The notes below the pieces were generated by a model. That model did not search any database. It was given only the letters and a program-made list of their open reading frames with translations, and was not told the origin of the DNA. This document shows, piece by piece, positions 1 through 9,009 of a DNA stretch of 20,745 bases (the stretch's first letter is position 1; every line of letters starts with the position of its first letter). Position numbers and translations under genes: made by a program. Source of the DNA: a virus; the IMG/VR virus record IMGVR_UViG_3300046694_000279, positions 1-20,745 of that record; one strand, given 5' to 3'.

Positions 1-263
1 CCCGTGCTGATCGAGCAATGCTCTTAAGACAGTTGAAACGTTGCGTTTTTGCATAACACGCATAGTGCTTGTTCTTATCGAAGAAAACAAATGCAGAATT
101 GCATAGTCGACGCATAACATGTTTTTTACATCGTAAAGGATGCCATCCGACCGTGGTGCCTGCGTCGAGAAGAGCGCCCATGGTAACCTTGCGCCCATCG
201 CGGAAAAGCCCGGCCGTTGCCCCGCTTTTGCCCCACCTCTTTCAACGAGCTTCCTGACAATCC
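1..263. other. Left flank upstream of the mutS fragment, no gene recognised
   Basis: No convincing coding region is visible on either strand. Short open frames at the extreme left run in from outside and stop within about 55 bases, so they could be the last codons of an upstream gene, but I do not recognise them. The stretch around 51-120 is AT-rich and holds four GCATA-type motifs: GCATAACA at 51, GCATAG at 60, GCATAG at 101 and GCATAACA at 112. A TTGCCCC doublet lies at 217-235 and is annotated separately. The stretch immediately before 264 would be the native mutS leader if the left side is host DNA. It could instead belong to another integrated element. Confidence 0.4.
217..235 (+). repeat. 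Putative integrase arm-type repeat, left copy
   Basis: The sequence TTGCCCCGCTTTTGCCCCA is two TTGCCCC heptamers with an 11-bp period. A copy of the same length and orientation, differing at two positions, lies at 426-444. The pair brackets the mutS fragment and terminator. Paired short direct repeats flanking a crossover site are typical of arm-type binding sites of tyrosine recombinases, which is my inference here. No integrase gene is in the window. Confidence 0.4.
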
Positions 264-320
264 GATGAATAAAGCCGTCTCCGACCTGTCCTCCCACACC
301 CCGATTGTGTTGGAGTACTA
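264..320 (+). pseudogene. mutS: mutS 5' fragment (18 codons), interrupted at a probable prophage attachment site
   Basis: An ATG-started frame reads MNKAVSDLSSHTPIVLEY and then TAG. The first 13 residues match the N-terminus of Pseudomonas MutS as I remember it (MNKA-SDLSSHTP followed by MMQQYW). MutS is the mismatch-recognition ATPase of about 860 residues, so only its first turn is present. After HTP the sequence departs, but the DNA still resembles mutS: AGTACT with TAG stands where the gene should have AGTACTGG. That is what an element carrying an imperfect copy of its target would leave. A strong terminator follows five bases later, so the native mutS start leads nowhere here. An intact mutS, with a 5' end rebuilt by the element, is expected beyond the other end. 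The MutS match is from memory and was not aligned. Confidence 0.7.
296..320 (+). other. Putative attachment-site core region
   Basis: The likely crossover lies in or just before the stretch where identity to mutS stops, around CACACCCC at 296-303. The next bases still resemble mutS codons 13 to 18 but contain several substitutions and a stop. The flanks carry matching arm-like repeats at 217-235 and 426-444. The exact core cannot be fixed without the opposite end of the element. Confidence 0.4.
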
Positions 321-324
321 GCGT

Positions 325-782: not shown

Positions 783-1709
783 ATGGATGTGTTTCATCTC
801 GTCATCGACACGAGCATGCTGCGTCAACTGCATTTCCAGCATCCAGATTTCGAGCGCCTGTTGCGCCAGTCGCAAATGGGCAAGCTCAAGATCTACATCC
901 CGCAGATTGTCATGGAGGAAGAGCGAACCGCAAAGCTTGCGGAGCATAGGAGGCTTGTCGATGAAATAAATACGAGATTTGACAAAATACGACGTGGCAT
1001 GCTTGGCATGATTGTGGAGGACCTTGCTGAACCTCACCTGGAATTATGGGATGCAGAAGATGTGGAGCGCAGTTCGAAGGTGGCTTTCACACGGTTTGTG
1101 ACTAACAACAAGATCGAGGTGATTGAGATTTCGATGGAGCACGCTGCCAAGGCATGGGGCAGATATTTCAAAGTAGAGCCGCCGTTCAACCCTAGAGAAG
1201 AGCGTGAAGCCAGGCGTAAGGATATACCGGACTCGTGGATACTTGAGGCTGGGATTGAGATTAAACCTAGAAAGGGGCTGCATTGTGCTTTGGTTGGCGA
1301 TGGCAAACTCGCCGGGGCCTTTCAGGCAGAGGGCTTTAAGGTCTACAGGGAAGTCCAGGCATTGCTCGATGACATCGAACGATCTACCGCTGTGGTCCCC
1401 ATTCGAGAGCCCGCCGCCGAGGACCAAAATGTTTCTCTCGATCAACTTCGCAGTCCAGACTTCAAGGACATGGATGTTATCGTGATGGGCTTGATCGAGG
1501 TACTTGGCGCTCCCTCCAAGGTTGATCTGCTCGCAGCAATATCAAAGGCAGGGCTGAATGCGAATATTGCTGAGCATGAAGCCCGTACGATGGTGCTGTC
1601 CGGCAGACTCACCGACACCGGCACACATTTCATTCCGACGAGTCGTGCTGTCGCCCAACAAGCGGCGGAGACGGATGCAGTGACCAATGTGCTTCTGAGG
1701 ATAGTCTGA
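783..1709 (+). CDS. PIN-domain nuclease with C-terminal winged-helix-like region
   Basis: This 308-residue protein begins with the strand and Asp of a PIN ribonuclease fold: VIDTS with D9, then the IPQIVMEEE segment with E45 and E46. A basic and acidic block, RRKDIPD (D147 and D150), and a later strand, ALVGDGKLA (D173), follow. These acids sit where PIN proteins, particularly the DUF4935 type, place their metal-binding residues, so the nuclease centre looks intact. Residues of about 205-308 form a separate region rich in short helices, with a winged-helix-like pattern that could bind nucleic acid or the partner. Length exceeds that of a VapC toxin (about 130 residues), and there is no VapB-like antitoxin. 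The stop overlaps the next start by one base (TGATG), so the two genes are almost certainly co-translated. Base composition is visibly lower in GC than in the tail genes, suggesting separate acquisition. The substrate is unknown. Confidence 0.7.
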   Translation: MDVFHLVIDTSMLRQLHFQHPDFERLLRQSQMGKLKIYIPQIVMEEERTAKLAEHRRLVDEINTRFDKIRRGMLGMIVEDLAEPHLELWDAEDVERSSKVAFTRFVTNNKIEVIEISMEHAAKAWGRYFKVEPPFNPREEREARRKDIPDSWILEAGIEIKPRKGLHCALVGDGKLAGAFQAEGFKVYREVQALLDDIERSTAVVPIREPAAEDQNVSLDQLRSPDFKDMDVIVMGLIEVLGAPSKVDLLAAISKAGLNANIAEHEARTMVLSGRLTDTGTHFIPTSRAVAQQAAETDAVTNVLLRIV

Positions 1710-4123
1710 TGAGCCAACTCGACCTGCGCTTGGCGGCGCTTTCAAAACTGGTGGACATCAAATCGGCGGCGGTGGATCAACGCCTGAGCGAAGAATTTAA
1801 CCGCATCGAGCGCATCTTCCAAAACAGTAACGAATACGATGAACTATCAGATGCATTGAAAACGCTTTCAGTGTTGGTACCTAGGTTTCATATGGCAACG
1901 TTACCGTTGCTGGAAACTTTCGTACAATCTTTACCGAGCAGAACTCTGACCAAAAGCGGTTCTCCAATCACCAGTGCCCGGCATCGCTACCGCTCCAATG
2001 AGAGTCTGCTTCGCGAAACAATCGACGTCGTAGAAAATATTCGGTTTTTGCACACTGAGCAGGTGGTGAGCTTCCTATTGGAGATAGCGCGAGCCTCTGA
2101 TAAAGATGTCAAAGCCAAGGCTGAGGGAGTGCTTGAGGCACTTGCCACGTTCGACCTAGATGTATTCTATGGCGACCGAGCCTTGGGTGCTGAACCGCAG
2201 GCTCGAATGGTTGCCCACTTCGCAGGGCTTCAAAACGATGAATTGCTAACCAACGCGGACATCATTCTCCGAGTGCTAAGCACTGTGTTATCGCCCAGTA
2301 TGGAAGGTCACTCTTGGTCATACGATAGTGTCACCATTCGTAGAGGCTCAATAGGTAGTGGCGGTGGCATTGCCGCCTTGCGTTCCGAAGCCATCACTCT
2401 AGCGAAGCGGATTTACAGTCTAGACAGGTCGGTTGAACATAGACGACATGTGTTGCAAACCCTTGTCTCTGCCACACGCCAAGAGACTCCCACTAGCGAT
2501 GAAGAAACGTCCGCCATGTTCGAGCGGGACGCGATTGTAGTGTTGGAGTTTATGCGTGACCTATTGGCAACTGAGGCTCTGCCACTGATTCAAAAAATCG
2601 AACACCAAAGCTACTGGATCTATTTCCACGGAGCGACCCCGGCGATTAAAAACAAAGCATTGGAAATACGCGATGCTGTGGATGCGCATGCCGAGTATCA
2701 GATTTACAAGCAGCTCATCGGCTTCGAAGGCATCTTCGGAAAATGGGAAGACTTAAGCCGCTCCGAAGCAGCATGGGATTATAGTGACAACAAGCGTCGT
2801 GAAGCTGCTCGCATGTACCTTGAGGAAATCGATGACACTAGCTACACCACATGGTTTAACAGGATCCTCAATTTCTCACATACCAGATCAAACGATCTAG
2901 CTGCGTTCCCGGTTTATTACGATTTCCTGAAGTCGATCGGCGAGAAACACCCACGATTCGCTTTGGACCTTTTGTCCAATCACGAAGAGCTCATGAAACC
3001 ATTCCTCATAGCTCTATTGAATGGTCTTTGGATCAGTGCGAACCAGTCCGATGTCGAATCGCTCGTCAAATGCTGGATTGTGAGTGGGCGAAACCTGGCA
3101 TCTGTTGCCAAATCACTGTACCAAGTTGGAACGTCGCGATTGGACGTACTTGCGTCGGTAGTCGAACGCGCTACCGAGGTCCATGATCGAGAAGCTCTCA
3201 TACAAGCTATGAGCGTTGCCGCAAACCTATTTCTAGCAGGCGCTTCAGACTCGAAAGCAATTTTCATGCGATCGTTGCGTGAAATGTCCAAGCGTGATGA
3301 TACTAGCTGGACCAACACTATCTGGCTAAATAGGGATTTCCAAGCCCTGATAGATGCGATGGAGGTCGAAGAGCGATCCGAACTGCTCGCCACTATGACA
3401 CTGCTGCCGGAACTGAATTACCAAACCGAAGAACTTCTCTATGCAATTGCGAAGCACGACCTACAGGCTGTTCTCGACTTTTTAGTCGGCCGGTTACAGC
3501 ATGCCAGGGCGTTAGCGAAGCGAACCCGTGAAACCGGCAAGAATGAAACTGACCGATTTGAGGCTATCCCCTACCAACTCAATAAGCTGAACGAAATTCT
3601 CGCGCGGGCGCCTGACGCGTTACTGTCAGCCCTGCGGCGTGATTTCGACGGGGAATCCAGCACCATGTTCAGCTATCGCGGCGCGCGAATTATCAAATCA
3701 ACGTTCCCCGAATTTGACGACTCGCTCGAAATTCTGCTGCTGAAGTACATCGAGAGCGGAGACGAACTTGATATTGAATTTGTCCTCGGTATTTTGCGCA
3801 CATACGACGGCTCACCTAAAATCCAAAATGTCTGCAAAACAATTATTAAAACAGTGCCAGAACGCTCACAAACTTGGAACGAAGTTGCCGCAGCACTTGA
3901 GTCCACTGGTGTCGTGCGGGGCGAATACGGTATGGTTGAAGCGTATGAGAGCAAGGTATTGGAACTATCAAGCTGGGTGAATGATGACGACGAGCGCGTT
4001 CGAACATTTGCAGAATGGCTTATAGGAAGCTTGCAGAGTTTAATCGCACAAGAGCGTCAGCGTACTGATCAAAATTTGGCCCTTCGCAAATATCAGTACG
4101 GTATTGGCAAGGACGAGAGTTAA
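1709..4123 (+). CDS. Large all-helical protein of unknown function, partner of the PIN nuclease
   Basis: I do not recognise this 804-residue protein. It reads as almost continuous amphipathic helices with leucine-rich heptad spacing and no transmembrane segment or signal peptide. No Walker A, helicase or other catalytic motif is apparent. The pattern suggests a HEAT/ARM-like solenoid, a fold often used as a sensor or scaffold. A glycine-rich loop near residues 210-222 (RRGSIGSGGG) interrupts the helices but lacks the Lys-Ser/Thr of a P-loop. The start overlaps the stop of the PIN gene, and TGAGGA lies about eight bases upstream as a ribosome site. It ends 27 bp before the convergent umuC. The pairing of a small nuclease with a large helical protein at a prophage edge resembles the layout of several phage-defence modules. 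That role is inferred from context, not from homology. Confidence 0.65.
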   Translation: MSQLDLRLAALSKLVDIKSAAVDQRLSEEFNRIERIFQNSNEYDELSDALKTLSVLVPRFHMATLPLLETFVQSLPSRTLTKSGSPITSARHRYRSNESLLRETIDVVENIRFLHTEQVVSFLLEIARASDKDVKAKAEGVLEALATFDLDVFYGDRALGAEPQARMVAHFAGLQNDELLTNADIILRVLSTVLSPSMEGHSWSYDSVTIRRGSIGSGGGIAALRSEAITLAKRIYSLDRSVEHRRHVLQTLVSATRQETPTSDEETSAMFERDAIVVLEFMRDLLATEALPLIQKIEHQSYWIYFHGATPAIKNKALEIRDAVDAHAEYQIYKQLIGFEGIFGKWEDLSRSEAAWDYSDNKRREAARMYLEEIDDTSYTTWFNRILNFSHTRSNDLAAFPVYYDFLKSIGEKHPRFALDLLSNHEELMKPFLIALLNGLWISANQSDVESLVKCWIVSGRNLASVAKSLYQVGTSRLDVLASVVERATEVHDREALIQAMSVAANLFLAGASDSKAIFMRSLREMSKRDDTSWTNTIWLNRDFQALIDAMEVEERSELLATMTLLPELNYQTEELLYAIAKHDLQAVLDFLVGRLQHARALAKRTRETGKNETDRFEAIPYQLNKLNEILARAPDALLSALRRDFDGESSTMFSYRGARIIKSTFPEFDDSLEILLLKYIESGDELDIEFVLGILRTYDGSPKIQNVCKTIIKTVPERSQTWNEVAAALESTGVVRGEYGMVEAYESKVLELSSWVNDDDERVRTFAEWLIGSLQSLIAQERQRTDQNLALRKYQYGIGKDES

Positions 4124-4134
4124 GTTGCGAAATT

Positions 4135-4165
4135 GTGCACTGAAAGATTACTACTTGCAGTGCAC
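4135..4165. terminator. Inverted repeat between convergent genes, possible weak terminator
   Basis: GTGCACTG at 4135-4142 pairs perfectly with CAGTGCAC at 4158-4165 across a 15-base loop. It overlaps the last codons of umuC and sits between two converging genes. Neither side has a T-run, so it is at best a weak or Rho-assisted stop. Confidence 0.3.
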
Positions 4166-5428
4166 CACCCATAATTGATTGATGTTAGTAGTGAAGCTCT
4201 GACTCATCATTTCGCGGCGCATGGCCCAATCCGGATGGCTCGGTACGCTAGCTGCACGGAGCGTGCCTCTGCCCCAACGGTCGTTGATCTGATCCAGCAC
4301 TGCCATCACCTTACTGGCTGAAGCCGGTTGAGATGTGGCGAACAGGTCGTCAGTGTATTCGCCGGGTTGGCACAGATTCAGTAGCAGCACTTCCGCTTTG
4401 CTGTAGGCGAATCCCGGACGGAAAATTCGATCAAGGGCGTCGACGGCCGCCCTAGTCAGTAGACGCACATCATCTGTTGGATATGGCAGGTCCACCACAA
4501 CACCGTTGGCATATTTGGCTTCCTCGGGATTAAACATGCCGGTGCGGATACTGACCCTGATCTTCTTGCACAAAGAATTCTGAGCCCGAAGCTTTTCAGA
4601 TGCCCGCATCATGTAGGTTGCCACGGCCTCTTTGATGGGAGGCAGCTCCGTTAATCGCTTGCCGAACATTCGGCTGCAACAGATCTCCTGTTTCGGCGGG
4701 TCTGGCTCATCAAGCTCCAGACACGGCGTGCCGGCCAGTTCCCGGGCCGTCTTCTCGATCACCACGCTGAAGTGCTTACGCAGAGACCAGGCATCCGCCT
4801 TGGCCAGGTCCATGGCTGACTTGATGCCCAGTGCATTCAGGTGCATTTTCATGCGCCTGCCCACGCCCCACACCTCACCCACGTCGGTGTTGCGAAGCAC
4901 CCAGTCACGTTTTACCTGGTCGCAAATATTCACAACACCGCCAGTCTGGGCCTGCAACCGTTTAGCCGTGTGGTTGGCCAGCTTGGCCAAGGTTTTAGTC
5001 GGGGCGATACCAACCCCGACCGGAATACCCGTGCACCGCAACACCTGACTGCGAATTTGTCGGCCGAGTTCGTCCAGCCCTTCGATACCGGTCAAGTCGG
5101 CAAAAGCCTCATCGATGCTGTACACCTCGACCGCCGGAACCAACGACTCGATCAGCGTCATCACCCGCTCGCTCATATCGCCATACAGGGCATAGTTCGA
5201 CGAGAACGCAACGATGCCCTGCTGCCGAAGCTTGTTCTTTATCTGGAAATACGGCTCGCCCATTTTCACGAAAGGTTTCGCGTCGTAGCTGCGCGCGATG
5301 ACGCAACCATCGTTGTTCGAGAGAACTACGATCGGGACCCTGGCCAAGTCCGGGCGAAACACCCGCTCGCAACTGGCATAGAAGCTGTTGCAATCAATCA
5401 GGCCGAAAACCGGCATTGGCTCAGACAT
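4151..5428 (-). CDS. umuC: DNA polymerase V catalytic subunit UmuC (Y-family)
   Basis: This 425-residue protein, close to the 422 of E. coli UmuC, is the translesion polymerase that copies past damaged bases together with processed UmuD. The palm motifs are intact: FGLIDCNSFYASCE with metal ligand D12, and YSIDEAFADLTG with D106 and E107. The little-finger domain and the UmuC-specific C-terminal region follow. A TDDLF segment late in the protein may be the clamp-binding peptide. The start overlaps the umuD stop by eight bases, so the two are one operon under the LexA box at 5865-5880. Such copies on mobile elements raise damage tolerance and mutation in the host. Confidence 0.95.
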   Translation of the reverse strand: MSEPMPVFGLIDCNSFYASCERVFRPDLARVPIVVLSNNDGCVIARSYDAKPFVKMGEPYFQIKNKLRQQGIVAFSSNYALYGDMSERVMTLIESLVPAVEVYSIDEAFADLTGIEGLDELGRQIRSQVLRCTGIPVGVGIAPTKTLAKLANHTAKRLQAQTGGVVNICDQVKRDWVLRNTDVGEVWGVGRRMKMHLNALGIKSAMDLAKADAWSLRKHFSVVIEKTARELAGTPCLELDEPDPPKQEICCSRMFGKRLTELPPIKEAVATYMMRASEKLRAQNSLCKKIRVSIRTGMFNPEEAKYANGVVVDLPYPTDDVRLLTRAAVDALDRIFRPGFAYSKAEVLLLNLCQPGEYTDDLFATSQPASASKVMAVLDQINDRWGRGTLRAASVPSHPDWAMRREMMSQSFTTNINQLWVVHCK

Positions 5429-5846
5429 GACTGCGCACGCTGCCCGTGATTACACCCCAGATCGACAGCTCGTCACTCTCCAAAACATAGCGCGGCGGGT
5501 ATTTTGGGTTTTCCGACAGTAGGATCACGTCCTTGCCTCGAATGCACAGCCGCTTGCAGACCGGATCGTTGTTCAGCAAAGCCACAACAATATGGCCGTG
5601 GGTCGGCTCAAGGGAGCGGTCCACTACCGCCAAATCTCCCTCAAAAATTCCCGCGCCTTGCATGCTTTCCCCGGTGATCGACACGAGGTAGACGTGTGGT
5701 GCACGGATATTCAGCACCTCATCGAGCGAGATGTGAGACTCGATGTGGTCCGCTGCTGGCGATGGGAATCCTGCCGGCACCTGGAACAGGCAGAGTGGTA
5801 GTTTCAGACCGCCCTGGGCAATAGGTCCTAACATTGAAAAGCTCAT
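5421..5846 (-). CDS. umuD: UmuD, self-cleaving SOS mutagenesis protein
   Basis: This 141-residue protein has the LexA/UmuD serine-lysine peptidase fold. The cleavage site AGFPSPAAD gives cutting between A25 and G26. The nucleophile lies in GESM (S61), and the general base is K98 in VCKRL. RecA filaments trigger cleavage, and the UmuD' dimer then joins UmuC to form Pol V. There is no DNA-binding domain, so it is UmuD rather than LexA. The ATG at 5846 is preceded by AGGAAG on the minus strand at suitable spacing. umuC follows with an eight-base overlap. Confidence 0.93.
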   Translation of the reverse strand: MSFSMLGPIAQGGLKLPLCLFQVPAGFPSPAADHIESHISLDEVLNIRAPHVYLVSITGESMQGAGIFEGDLAVVDRSLEPTHGHIVVALLNNDPVCKRLCIRGKDVILLSENPKYPPRYVLESDELSIWGVITGSVRSHV

Positions 5847-5864
5847 AACGCACGACTTCCTGCA

Positions 5865-5880
5865 CTGTACGAATATACAG
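5865..5880. promoter_or_regulatory. LexA (SOS) box upstream of umuDC
   Basis: CTGTACGAATATACAG matches the LexA consensus CTG-N10-CAG with a near-palindromic AT-rich centre. It lies 19 bp upstream of the umuD start and overlaps the end of the predicted -10 element. It is also 63 bp upstream of the divergent yedK start, so it may control both directions. Confidence 0.9.
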
Positions 5881-5907
5881 TTAACTTTCAGAAAGCTTTG
5901 CAGTCAA
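5879..5907 (-). promoter_or_regulatory. Predicted sigma-70 promoter of umuDC
   Basis: On the minus strand TTGACT (5902-5907) and TTAACT (5879-5884) are separated by 17 bp. The LexA box begins within the -10 element, so bound LexA would block initiation. The elements are good but not perfect matches, and no transcript start is known. Confidence 0.5.
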
Positions 5908-5943
5908 TTTTTTTGTAGGAGAAATCTGATAGGCGGGTGAGTT

Positions 5944-6657
5944 ATGTGTGGACGACTTTCGCAGTACAGCGGCATCCACGACTTCGTGGCGGCGCTGAGC
6001 ATGCCCAACGCGCTGGTCAACACTACCGGTGATCAAGCGTTCGAGCGCTATAACGCTGCACCATCGACGCAACTCGCCCTGTTCCATCAAGAAGGTCGCT
6101 ACCTGCACGCCGACATGGTGCGCTGGGGCTGGCGACCGCACTGGGCGAAGGATCGCGCCGCGCCGATCAATGCCAGGGTTGAGAAAGTCGCCCACGGCCC
6201 CTTCTTCCGCGCGATCTGGCCGCACCGAGCAATCATCGCGATCAACAACTGGTTCGAGTGGGTGGATGAAGACGAACCGAAAAAGCAGCCCTACCTCATT
6301 CGACACAGGGATCAATCACCAATCCTGTGCGCTGCGATTGGTCAGTACCCAAATGTCGAGCAAGAACCGAGCGAACACGACGGGTTTTTGATCATTACCG
6401 CCGATAGTGCCGGTGGCATGGTGGATATCCACGACCGGCGGCCGGTGACATTGTCACCAGAACTGGCAAGGGAATGGTTGGAGCCGGTCACCCCCAAGGA
6501 ACGCGCCGAACAGATGGTGCTGTTCCAGGGAGAGCCGACCGAGGCATTCGAATGGTTCAAGGTTGACCGGGCCATTGGCAACGTACGAAATCAAGGCCCC
6601 GAGTTAATTGAGCCTATCGGGCAAATCACTGGAGGTGACGAAAAGGGACCCCCCTGA
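5944..6657 (+). CDS. yedK: YedK/HMCES-type SRAP abasic-site protein
   Basis: This 237-residue SOS-response-associated peptidase-like protein would bind single-stranded DNA at abasic sites and form a thiazolidine crosslink through its N-terminal Cys2. All expected residues are visible: MCGR at the start with C2 exposed after Met removal, N37 in YNAAPS, N76 to E80 in INARVEK, E105 in WFEWV, and H163 in IHDRRP. Length and order fit the family. It is transcribed divergently from umuDC across the region holding the LexA box, which links it to the damage response as its family name implies. GGGTGAG just before ATG 5944 is a weak ribosome site. The octamer array begins 97 bp after the stop. Confidence 0.92.
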   Translation: MCGRLSQYSGIHDFVAALSMPNALVNTTGDQAFERYNAAPSTQLALFHQEGRYLHADMVRWGWRPHWAKDRAAPINARVEKVAHGPFFRAIWPHRAIIAINNWFEWVDEDEPKKQPYLIRHRDQSPILCAAIGQYPNVEQEPSEHDGFLIITADSAGGMVDIHDRRPVTLSPELAREWLEPVTPKERAEQMVLFQGEPTEAFEWFKVDRAIGNVRNQGPELIEPIGQITGGDEKGPP

Positions 6658-6754: not shown

Positions 6755-7034
6755 CGTCATTACGTCATTACGTCATTACGTCATTACGTCATTGCGTCAT
6801 TACGTCATTGCGTTCTTACGTCATTACGTCATTACGTCATTACGTCATTACGTCATTACGTCATTGCGTCATTGCGTCATTACGTCATTACGTCATTACG
6901 TCATTACGTCATTGCGTCATTACGTCATTACGTCATTACGTCATTACGTCATTGCGTCATTACGTCATTACGTCATTACGTCATTGCGTCATTGCGTCAT
7001 TGCGTCATTACGTCATTACGTCATTGCGTCATTG
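6755..7034. repeat. Octamer tandem array, block 1 (CGTCATTR x 35)
   Basis: Thirty-five consecutive octamers run without a single phase break. Thirty-four are CGTCATTA or CGTCATTG. The exception is CGTTCTTA at 6811-6818. A-type and G-type units alternate irregularly, with a 40-bp higher-order unit (four A then one G) repeated at 6875-6954. On the opposite strand the unit reads as a TGACGTAA-like near-palindrome. The unit length is not a multiple of three, so all three plus frames stay open and would encode an eight-residue repeat. That is a by-product of the array rather than evidence of a gene. Such arrays expand and contract by slippage. No function is evident. Confidence 0.95.
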
Positions 7035-7106
7035 CGTTAATGCGTTATATCGCTAATTCGCTAATTCGTTAATTCGTTAATTCGTTAATTCGTTAATTCG
7101 TTAATT
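7035..7106. repeat. Octamer tandem array, block 2 (CGTTAATT type x 9)
   Basis: Nine further octamers continue in exact phase with block 1: CGTTAATG, CGTTATAT, CGCTAATT twice, then CGTTAATT five times. A degenerate unit, CGCTACTG, follows at 7107-7114. The first units are intermediate between the two types, so both blocks probably descend from one octamer, with separate later expansions. Block 2 is far more AT-rich. Confidence 0.9.
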
Positions 7107-7373
7107 CGCTACTGAATGAATACCTTCAGATTTCCGAAGCTCTCCGTGCCTAAAAAAATCTACCCATACACCCGCAGCCCTTGATCCTGCCTCCCGCATA
7201 CACCCTTGCCCCAATCCCCAAGAAACGGGCGCCCCGGCATATACCCATAAGCCGAGGGCAGACTATGCAGCGGACTCCAAAACCATTCATTGATAGTCTT
7301 TACAATAAACTATTGACGAATAGCCACTGGAACATTTAGTTTAAATAACGTTCTACTTAACCCCCTCAGGTCC
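7107..7373. other. Spacer after the octamer array, no gene recognised
   Basis: No supported coding region is seen. The stretch holds pyrimidine-rich runs around 7150-7230 and turns AT-rich from about 7280. A possible promoter at 7313-7341 and a hairpin at 7374-7404 are listed separately. Confidence 0.4.
7313..7341 (+). promoter_or_regulatory. Possible promoter ahead of a short transcript
   Basis: TTGACG (7313-7318) and TTAGTT (7336-7341) are 17 bp apart in AT-rich DNA. The -35 is good and the -10 is poor. A terminator hairpin follows within about 35 bp, so any transcript would be very short or attenuated. Confidence 0.25.
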
Positions 7374-7522: not shown

Positions 7523-8317
7523 TCAGAACAAACCTCCTAATGCCGAGGGCTCCCAATTCATGATCACAAGCTCGCCACTGACCTCGGCCTTTCCCTGCCG
7601 CTGGTTTGTAGTGGTGTATCGAATATCCAGTGTCTCGAAGTGAAAGCCGTCAAAGACCCGTCGAATATCCGGATGGTCATTGATGCTGACCATCACTTTG
7701 CCTTTACAGCGACGCATGAACTCGGCCATCCGCTCATAGTTCTCAAACAGAAAATCCACCCCATACCCTGCGGTCTGCCAATACGGCGGGTCCATGTAAT
7801 GGAAGGTGTGGGGCCGGTCATACCGTTCTGCGCATTCGAGCCAGGGCAGGTTCTCGACGTAGGTGCCGGACAAGCGTTGCCAGGCGGCCGAGAGGTTTTC
7901 CTCGATCCGCAGCAGGTTGATGGCCGGGCCAGTGGTCGCGGTACCGAACGTTTGCCCGGTGACCTTGCCGGCGAAGGCATGGTGCTGCAGGTAGAAAAAT
8001 CGGGCGGCACGCTGGATGTCGGTTAGGGTTTCGGGGCGGGTCATCTTCTGCCACTCGAACACCTGACGCGAACTGAGCGCCCATTTGAACTGGCGCACGA
8101 ACTCTTCGAGGTGGTTCTGCACGACGCGGTAGAGCGTGACCAGGTCGCCGTTGATGTCATTGAGGACTTCAACGGGCGCAGCCTGGGGCCGCATGAAGTA
8201 CAGCGCGGCGCCGCCGGCAAAGACTTCGACGTAGCACTCGTGCGGTGGGAAGAGCGGAATGAGACGGTCGGCCAGGCGGCGTTTGCCGCCCATCCAAGGG
8301 ATGATGGGTGTGGACAT
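7523..8317 (-). CDS. dam: DNA adenine methyltransferase (D12 class, Dam-like)
   Basis: This 264-residue enzyme would transfer a methyl group from S-adenosylmethionine to N6 of adenine. It has the D12-class order: PWMGGKRRL near the start, motif I EVFAGGAAL (about residues 31-39) for the cofactor, and catalytic DPPY at 176-179. The GATC target of Dam is the family expectation but is not shown. The ATG at 8317 is preferred over an upstream TTG at 8326 because AAAGG on the minus strand suits it better and homology starts nearby. Phage copies can protect phage DNA from restriction or alter gene control. A LexA-like box lies 18 bp upstream. The gene is downstream of the lysis genes but separated by a long hairpin. 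Confidence 0.88.
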   Translation of the reverse strand: MSTPIIPWMGGKRRLADRLIPLFPPHECYVEVFAGGAALYFMRPQAAPVEVLNDINGDLVTLYRVVQNHLEEFVRQFKWALSSRQVFEWQKMTRPETLTDIQRAARFFYLQHHAFAGKVTGQTFGTATTGPAINLLRIEENLSAAWQRLSGTYVENLPWLECAERYDRPHTFHYMDPPYWQTAGYGVDFLFENYERMAEFMRRCKGKVMVSINDHPDIRRVFDGFHFETLDIRYTTTNQRQGKAEVSGELVIMNWEPSALGGLF

Positions 8318-8334
8318 AAATAGCAAGACCTTTA

Positions 8335-8350
8335 CTGTATGGATAAACAG
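8335..8350. promoter_or_regulatory. LexA-like (SOS) box upstream of the methyltransferase
   Basis: CTGTATGGATAAACAG keeps the CTG-N10-CAG frame and matches CTGTATATATATACAG at 13 of 16 positions. It also has the TA flank on the left. It sits 18 bp before the ATG at 8317, where a bound repressor would block transcription. No strong -35 and -10 pair could be assigned. Confidence 0.75.
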
Positions 8351-8400
8351 GTGCTAGGCTCGCCGCGCTTCGTGCACGGAGTAAGAGCCTTGGCTGGACT

Positions 8401-8422
8401 TGCAGGGACCATCTGCAGGGAC
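8401..8422 (+). repeat. Short direct repeat
   Basis: TGCAGGGAC occurs at 8401-8409 and 8414-8422, separated by four bases, just left of the long hairpin. No role is evident. Confidence 0.5.
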
Positions 8423-8423
8423 G

Positions 8424-8461
8424 GCGACCGGGTTGGATGTTGACGCATCCAACCCGGTCGC
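8424..8461. terminator. Perfect 16-bp hairpin between the lysis genes and the methyltransferase
   Basis: Bases 8424-8439 pair without mismatch with 8446-8461, with a six-base loop, TTGACG. The hairpin begins five bases after the Rz stop on the minus strand, so it may end or protect the late transcript. The T-rich run (TCTTTT) lies on the plus-strand side, so as a classical terminator it points the other way. It could work as a barrier in both directions. Confidence 0.6.
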
Positions 8462-8466
8462 TCTTT

Positions 8467-9009
8467 TCACTTCGGTGTTGAGATTTCTTTGGCGTAGGCC
8501 TGACAGGCCGCGAGGGCGATCAGTCCTTGGTCACCGGACTCGGTGATGCCGATAATTCGTTGAGCATGCGCTGGGTCAAGTTGGGCTCTTGTGGGGCCAT
8601 GAACCACGCCGCCGGTGGCGGGGGTGGCTGACATTGCGCAGCCGCCGGCTGAATCGGTGGCGTCGAGTAGGACTGACAGGCGCAGATCAGCAGTGGCAAG
8701 GCGGTCGCGCAGGCGACTTTGATCACGTTGGGCATCGCTCAGGACTCGGTAATGGGTTTGTTCACTGGCGGAAAGCCGTTGCTCCAGGGCCAGACGTTTG
8801 TCTTGTTCGGCACGCTGTTGCGCGGCCGCGGCCAAGGCCAGTTGGTTGAGCGTGTCGGTGTGCATTTGGGCCTGCTCCGCGAGTTGCTTACCGTAGCGCC
8901 AAGCCTGGGCCTGCCAAGCCAGTGCGGCAGATCCACCCGCGATTGCAAACAGTAAACCGCCGACAGCGACCACTCGATACGGCACAGGGATCAGGTCGAC
9001 GAGACGCAT
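8467..9009 (-). CDS. Rz: Rz-like i-spanin (lysis protein)
   Basis: This 180-residue inner-membrane spanin has an N-terminal transmembrane segment (VVAVGGLLFAIAGGSAALAW) followed by a long periplasmic coiled coil rich in Ala, Gln, Glu and Arg. With its outer-membrane partner Rz1 it fuses the two membranes in the last step of lysis. I take ATG 9009 (MRLVDLIP) as the start because a GAGG ribosome site precedes it. A longer frame begins at 9033. It overlaps the endolysin end by 19 bases. The o-spanin gene is embedded in another frame. Confidence 0.85.
   Translation of the reverse strand: MRLVDLIPVPYRVVAVGGLLFAIAGGSAALAWQAQAWRYGKQLAEQAQMHTDTLNQLALAAAAQQRAEQDKRLALEQRLSASEQTHYRVLSDAQRDQSRLRDRLATADLRLSVLLDATDSAGGCAMSATPATGGVVHGPTRAQLDPAHAQRIIGITESGDQGLIALAACQAYAKEISTPK
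8520..8735 (-). CDS. Rz1: Rz1-like o-spanin lipoprotein, embedded in Rz
   Basis: This 71-residue frame lies wholly inside Rz in a different frame, the classical Rz/Rz1 arrangement. The N-terminus is a lipoprotein signal, with hydrophobic ATALPLLICA before the lipidated Cys (about C20). A proline-rich mature part follows, including a PPPPP run, as in lambda Rz1. It would anchor in the outer membrane and bind the Rz coiled coil. Start ATG at 8735. Confidence 0.82.
   Translation of the reverse strand: MPNVIKVACATALPLLICACQSYSTPPIQPAAAQCQPPPPPAAWFMAPQEPNLTQRMLNELSASPSPVTKD

Follow-up and report, generated by a model that had tools for sequence, protein, structure and literature searches.

Overall organization of the locus

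The window, i.e. the whole 20,745-nucleotide stretch of viral DNA analyzed here, carries a pair of genes near its left end, encoding a putative nuclease effector (gene 1) and a long helical protein (gene 2). The stop codon TGA of gene 1 (1707-1709) and the start codon ATG of gene 2 (1709-1711) overlap by one base. The pair lies on the + strand and the phage tail genes on the - strand, and the GC content of the pair (~0.48-0.55) is lower than that of the tail genes (~0.55-0.69). An earlier note on this DNA had described the same open reading frames, overlap, strand, and GC content, all of which we recover. A promoter scan finds no sigma-70-like site upstream of gene 1, and the counts of the scan do not exceed those of shuffled sequences.

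Table 1 Features of the gene pair and its surroundings in the window.
Feature	Position	Strand	Basis
Host chromosome, upstream of mutS and its first ~13 codons; element edge	1..323		
Interval with the pair, absent from locus L099	446..4198		
Effector gene (gene 1), PIN_12 nuclease and C-terminal adapter, 308 aa	783..1709	+	ORF, Pfam, AF2 model
Predicted PIN nuclease domain, residues 1-204, acidic center D9/E46/D150/D173	783..1394	+	
Winged-helix-like adapter, residues 219-308, common to otherwise different effectors	1437..1706	+	
HEAT/ARM-like alpha-solenoid (gene 2), 804 aa, proposed sensor/scaffold	1709..4123	+	

Gene 1 encodes a predicted PIN_12 nuclease

Gene 1 matches the Pfam family PIN_12 (PF16289) with an E-value of 2.8e-13 and 51.1 bits, above the cut-off of 32. 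The AF2 model, made from an alignment of 21 effectors, has a pLDDT of 87.7 and consists of a PIN domain and a winged helix connected by a disordered linker (residues 205-218). The top 50 VIA-align structural matches are all PIN-type proteins, many of them VapC toxins, and cover the PIN part; the best has a Z-score of 12.8 and 3.0 Å over 144 residues. In accordance, the PIN assignment of the earlier note stands. Its acidic center stands in most positions: E46 and D150 are conserved in 21 of 21 relatives, as is E155, and E45 and D173 in 20 of 21, while D9 is kept in 20 and is E in the other one. Only D147 is weaker (18/21). In L002 and L040 (loci of relatives are numbered with L), glutamate replaces the first PIN aspartate. 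Gene 1 is, as judged from sequence and model, a PIN_12 nuclease with an intact acidic metal-binding center and predicted nuclease activity.

Both its score and its acidic residues place the nuclease domain in PIN_12/DUF4935. Pfam assigns no function to this domain family, which one open-licence paper mentions as the uncharacterised DUF4935; both the winged-helix adapter and the solenoid partner lie outside it. The tail of gene 1, already suspected to be winged-helix-like, is indeed modeled as a winged helix; rows 32-50 of its Foldseek matches include MarR/IdeR/DtxR-type folds over ~75 aa.

Gene 2 encodes a predicted HEAT/ARM-like solenoid

The AF2 model of gene 2, made from 46 aligned sequences, has a pLDDT of 88.9 and shows a nearly all-helical HEAT/ARM-like alpha-solenoid. 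Gene 2 has no match in Pfam, NCBIfam, or PADLOC, in line with the earlier description of a long, possibly HEAT-like protein without a recognized motif. In particular, no NTPase family, as looked for in STAND/Avs systems, matches it at E up to 1 in these three collections, and no model of PADLOC 2.0.0, Dsr2 included, matches either protein at E up to 1. A PHROGs search gives nothing convincing, and no gene 2 homologue is found in phage records. The top structural matches are CAND1, Integrator, and importins, with Z-scores of 14.3 or lower. We reject these identities, as such Z-scores are within the range for any helical repeat and support only the general fold. DSR2 is not among the top structural matches, which excludes nothing. 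Sequence searches of solved structures return only designed repeat proteins and chance matches. The predicted fold, confidently modeled, is therefore called HEAT/ARM-like in the sense of a general resemblance only. The most conserved blocks are residues 326-350, 376-400, and 726-750, and the conservation profile contains no clear hypervariable sensing patch along the solenoid.

The solenoid is constantly paired with exchangeable effectors

Scans of viral contigs with the single proteins give no matches, and relatives were reached only by alignment query. We find gene 2 homologues in plasmid records (4), further IMG/VR records (6), and bacterial genomes (39). On plasmids, the solenoid lies behind a PIN_12 gene in Legionella and Pseudanabaena and is fused behind RelA_SpoT in Sphingobium and Rhizobium. 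The earlier note had called for a survey of homologous pairs and had named homologues standing apart in housekeeping contexts as evidence against the pair. The survey finds no such homologues: all 37 two-gene loci, among them that of the window, have the solenoid gene directly downstream of an effector gene, and the pairing is constant. The spacing between the two genes is -26 to +8 nt where the starts of the open reading frames could be set automatically; the effector of L027, where the solenoid frame was over-extended, was identified separately.

The effectors belong to several classes. PIN_12 effectors form clade A, to which that of the window belongs, and clade B, and a third PIN form occurs in L034 and L042. 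The effector of L029 is a DUF4365 protein (E 5.7e-25). That of L008 is PD-(D/E)XK-like as judged by eye, Pfam giving only a weak HTH match. In L038, the effector slot (8123-8929) is taken by a helical protein that matches nothing in Pfam and may represent a new effector fold. L034, a Bacteroidota MAG, and L042, a Smithella genome of another phylum, have an identical effector and an identical shared part of the solenoid, owing to either recent transfer or mis-binning.

Otherwise different effectors have a C-terminal domain of ~90 residues in common. When the last 95 residues of 16 PIN effectors are the sole input to an HMM, it detects the C-termini of all remaining two-gene effectors but one, with domain E-values of 1.5e-17 to 1.4e-5 (values being stronger for sequences used in its building); the effector of L038 gives no match at its C-terminus. 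By class, the E-values are 1.5e-17 to 5e-11 for PIN clade B, 1.5e-6 for the third PIN form, 6.8e-8 for the PD-(D/E)XK-like effector, and 1.4e-5 for DUF4365; the best value among 2428 background ORFs of the same loci is 0.25. In 21 whole genomes, a profile of the full PIN effector matches only beside the solenoid. In the genomes with DUF4365 and clade B effectors, the match is confined to profile positions from ~213 on, i.e. to the adapter, and five genomes with synthetase fusions have no match. Therefore, the adapter travels with the solenoid while the catalytic domain changes. From its sequence distribution, we propose that the C-terminal domain acts like an adapter between effectors and solenoid.

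The solenoid is also fused to a RelA/SpoT synthetase domain

At 17 loci, a single protein combines the solenoid with a RelA/SpoT alarmone-synthetase domain (Pfam E to 1.5e-11); one of these fusions is truncated (L045), and 4 of the 17 come from the wider genome searches. The synthetase motifs RxK, D-x-x-G-x-R, and E-[IV]-Q...H...E..HD..Y are conserved in the fusions. The window pair has no RelA/SpoT synthetase domain in Pfam.

One protein of a Rhizobium plasmid (L004, 6653-10585) consists of RelA_SpoT, the solenoid, and a C-terminal poly-gamma-glutamate hydrolase domain (PF05908). Its gene adjoins SIR2/DSR2-type and caspase-family genes.

Effectors have been replaced within a rare and mobile family

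In the tree of the solenoid, the seven effector classes require six label changes, the minimum for this number. The clade A PIN rows need five changes, and other classes are nested among them, indicating that effector replacement happened within the family. L038 is sister to the Pseudanabaena PIN row (support 100/99), and PIN clade B groups with three clade A rows (98/95). The branch between the two-gene set and the synthetase fusions is weakly supported (83/66).

The solenoid family is rare, patchy, and single-copy, and it occurs on mobile elements and beside known defense genes. Each of 21 carrier genomes has one copy. Beyond the genomes used as centers of the search, the family is present in 1 of 368 genomes in the class of L012, in 3 of 384 in the class of L029, and in 0 of 291 in the phylum of the Pseudanabaena genome. 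We find no DNA-level relative among 5,426 complete E. coli genomes; this would help to explain why screens centered on E. coli have missed the family. The relatives lie on plasmids, integrase islands, and chromosomes of several phyla, most without nearby tail genes, and integrases are found near several of their loci. In Legionella (L002 and L039), the pair can lie beside rpoD-dnaG, and an integrase gene adjoins it in L002.

We scanned up to six flanking ORFs per locus with PADLOC. The neighbors give 88 family matches in 121 ORFs and 199 in 134 ORFs, compared with 39 in a control set of 122 ORFs taken far from the loci in some of these genomes. Overlapping models are counted more than once in these figures, and type I RM and helicase models account for much of the 199, so strong individual matches weigh more. 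The nearest relative, L012, has HamA immediately downstream (E 1.2e-153). Other defense neighbors are a DSR2-type SIR2 protein, AbiEii, a type I RM specificity subunit, SngA, and PDC-S73.

These loci bear on the possibility that the pair is a toxin-antitoxin-like addiction module that stabilizes a mobile element, with the solenoid as a large antitoxin and phage defense absent or secondary. PIN domains are the toxins of VapBC modules, in which VapC cleaves tRNA or rRNA. Gene 1 has the PIN fold and acidic center in common with VapC, many VapC proteins are among its closest solved folds, and the one-base gene overlap and the plasmids and integrase-bearing elements of the relatives would fit as well. 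However, gene 1 is larger than VapC and has its own adapter, and in place of a small upstream DNA-binding antitoxin there is an 804-aa downstream solenoid without a Pfam match; the winged helix is on the effector instead. Moreover, the large protein is constant while the toxins swap, and defense genes are frequent neighbors. The size and position of the partner, and the toxin being the variable part, weaken the addiction reading, which we consider unlikely.

The pair is exchangeable cargo at a tailocin hot spot

Positions 1-323 of the window are Pseudomonas chromosome and contain the first codons of mutS (MNKAVSDLSSHTP...). Matches to the window are found in 135 of 249 Pseudomonas genomes, most of which match parts or all of this region in the chromosome. 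The element ends at ~323, which leaves ~460 bp to the start of gene 1. L089 and L091 are empty sites, with an intact mutS beginning at the same point, and in L094 recA, cinA, and a regulator lie on the other side. The interval from mutS to cinA/recA is a known tailocin hot spot (PMC7815802). The element of the window sits in this tailocin/prophage hot spot, with the pair at its left end. More precisely, the "prophage edge" of the earlier note, which is close to the pair, is the mutS-proximal end of an element with a contractile tail. Over the tail sheath/tube stretch, this element shares 76% identity with phage PS17. A prophage and an R-tailocin both fit, as the window stops before any capsid genes would show.

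L096 and L097 share the left end and, at 81% identity, the dam-lysis-tail stretch, but the genes in between differ. In L099, the equivalent of 294-445 is only ~50 bp from umuC; umuD, umuC, and SRAP are present and the pair is absent. Therefore, the pair is exchangeable cargo. In L087, L090, L094, and L097, other uncharacterised genes occupy the mutS-proximal cargo position and are candidate defense cargo. A second cargo block of the window (4151-6657) contains umuC, umuD, and SRAP (YedK-type), and the same block is present in L099. Between SRAP and dam (6755-7108) are 8-base tandem repeats, ~35 copies of CGTCATTA followed by ~9 copies of CGTTAATT.

The pair shares its inserted element with the tail genes and could provide an RNA-processing or counter-defense function for the tail cluster, for example in tailocin production, rather than host protection. 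We regard this as very improbable, as the relatives on islands, plasmids, and chromosomes of several phyla mostly lack tail genes, and different cargo occupies the same place beside similar tail modules.

The nearest neighbors of the window pair are SOS genes rather than defense genes. Exact LexA-type boxes lie at 5865-5880, between the divergent umuD and SRAP, and at 8335-8350, before the dam, lysis, and tail genes, which suggests SOS control of both gene sets; the total of near-matches to the box in the window is not above chance. The pair might accordingly belong to a stress-response module of the element or host rather than an immune device, reacting for example to damaged DNA; the effector would then remodel RNA, with umuDC, SRAP, and dam as partners of the module. 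The adjacency of umuDC and SRAP and the two boxes would fit this reading, as would L005, which adjoins imuA, a Y-family polymerase gene, and error-prone polymerase genes. However, umuDC and SRAP occupy the same junction without the pair in L099, SOS-type genes are uncommon near the relatives, and the LexA-box scan of the window finds no exact box upstream of gene 1. It is also hard to accommodate several unrelated effector chemistries in one stress pathway. We consider a stress-response module distinctly improbable.

Proposed function

A large scaffold that stays conserved while its toxic enzymes are exchanged follows the pattern of sensor-effector immune systems. On this basis, the pair is probably a two-component cassette of the abortive-infection type, in which the solenoid would sense infection and release an interchangeable toxic enzyme. 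From the observed architecture and effector swapping, we infer a physical complex, inhibition, a trigger, a substrate, toxicity, and protection, as follows. The winged-helix adapter would dock the PIN effector onto the HEAT-like solenoid, which would keep it inactive until a phage product or an infection-caused change appears. Once triggered, the solenoid would free or activate the effector, which would cleave RNA, most likely tRNA, rRNA, or mRNA; translation would stop and the phage would not be multiplied. Because the solenoid is used with several other effectors, it would be the constant sensing or regulating part, and the enzyme (PIN, DUF4365, PD-(D/E)XK-like, or fused RelA/SpoT) the exchangeable output.

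Several known systems resemble parts of this arrangement, and the pair has no close characterized homologue. The closest tested systems are DefensePredictor DS-3 and DS-5, whose phage defense is validated and PIN-dependent (PMC13092281). Like the window pair, DS-5 has two genes; its partner is required and is not an antitoxin (PMC13092281). However, DS-3 comprises one protein only, its PIN domain being split, and the DS-5 partner has DUF5830 and an AcrIF4-like domain (PMC13092281). No solenoid or swapped effector is described for either system, and gene 2, lacking any Pfam match at E up to 1, shows neither of these partner domains. ToxSAS enzymes, which have been linked to phage immunity, transfer pyrophosphate to tRNA (PMC11559606). 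As in CapRel/toxSAS, the fused relatives join a RelA/SpoT synthetase to a proposed sensing part, but this part would be a HEAT-like solenoid of ~700-800 aa that is common to nuclease effectors. DSR2, triggered by the phage tail tube protein (PMC11263360), combines a SIR2 enzyme with a large helical HEAT-like receptor, comparable to effector plus solenoid. In contrast, the window effector is encoded by a separate gene and is exchangeable, and neither window protein has a SIR2 match in Pfam or PADLOC.

PIN domains, HEAT-like repeats, and RelA/SpoT domains are known; the solenoid family, its adapter, and the swapping were not found in the databases or open-licence papers searched, and searches of the open-licence literature for PIN, RelA/SpoT, HEAT, and defense in combination yield no description of the solenoid family. 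There is about an even chance that the family is an undescribed group of modular immune receptors, in which a conserved solenoid senses infection and drives interchangeable toxic outputs through a shared adapter or a RelA/SpoT fusion; the fused output would then be either tRNA-modifying or alarmone-making. That unrelated enzymes are swapped behind one scaffold suggests that this scaffold is what senses infection. If so, chimeras should exchange output yet keep trigger specificity, and the adapter provides a sequence handle for finding further effectors.
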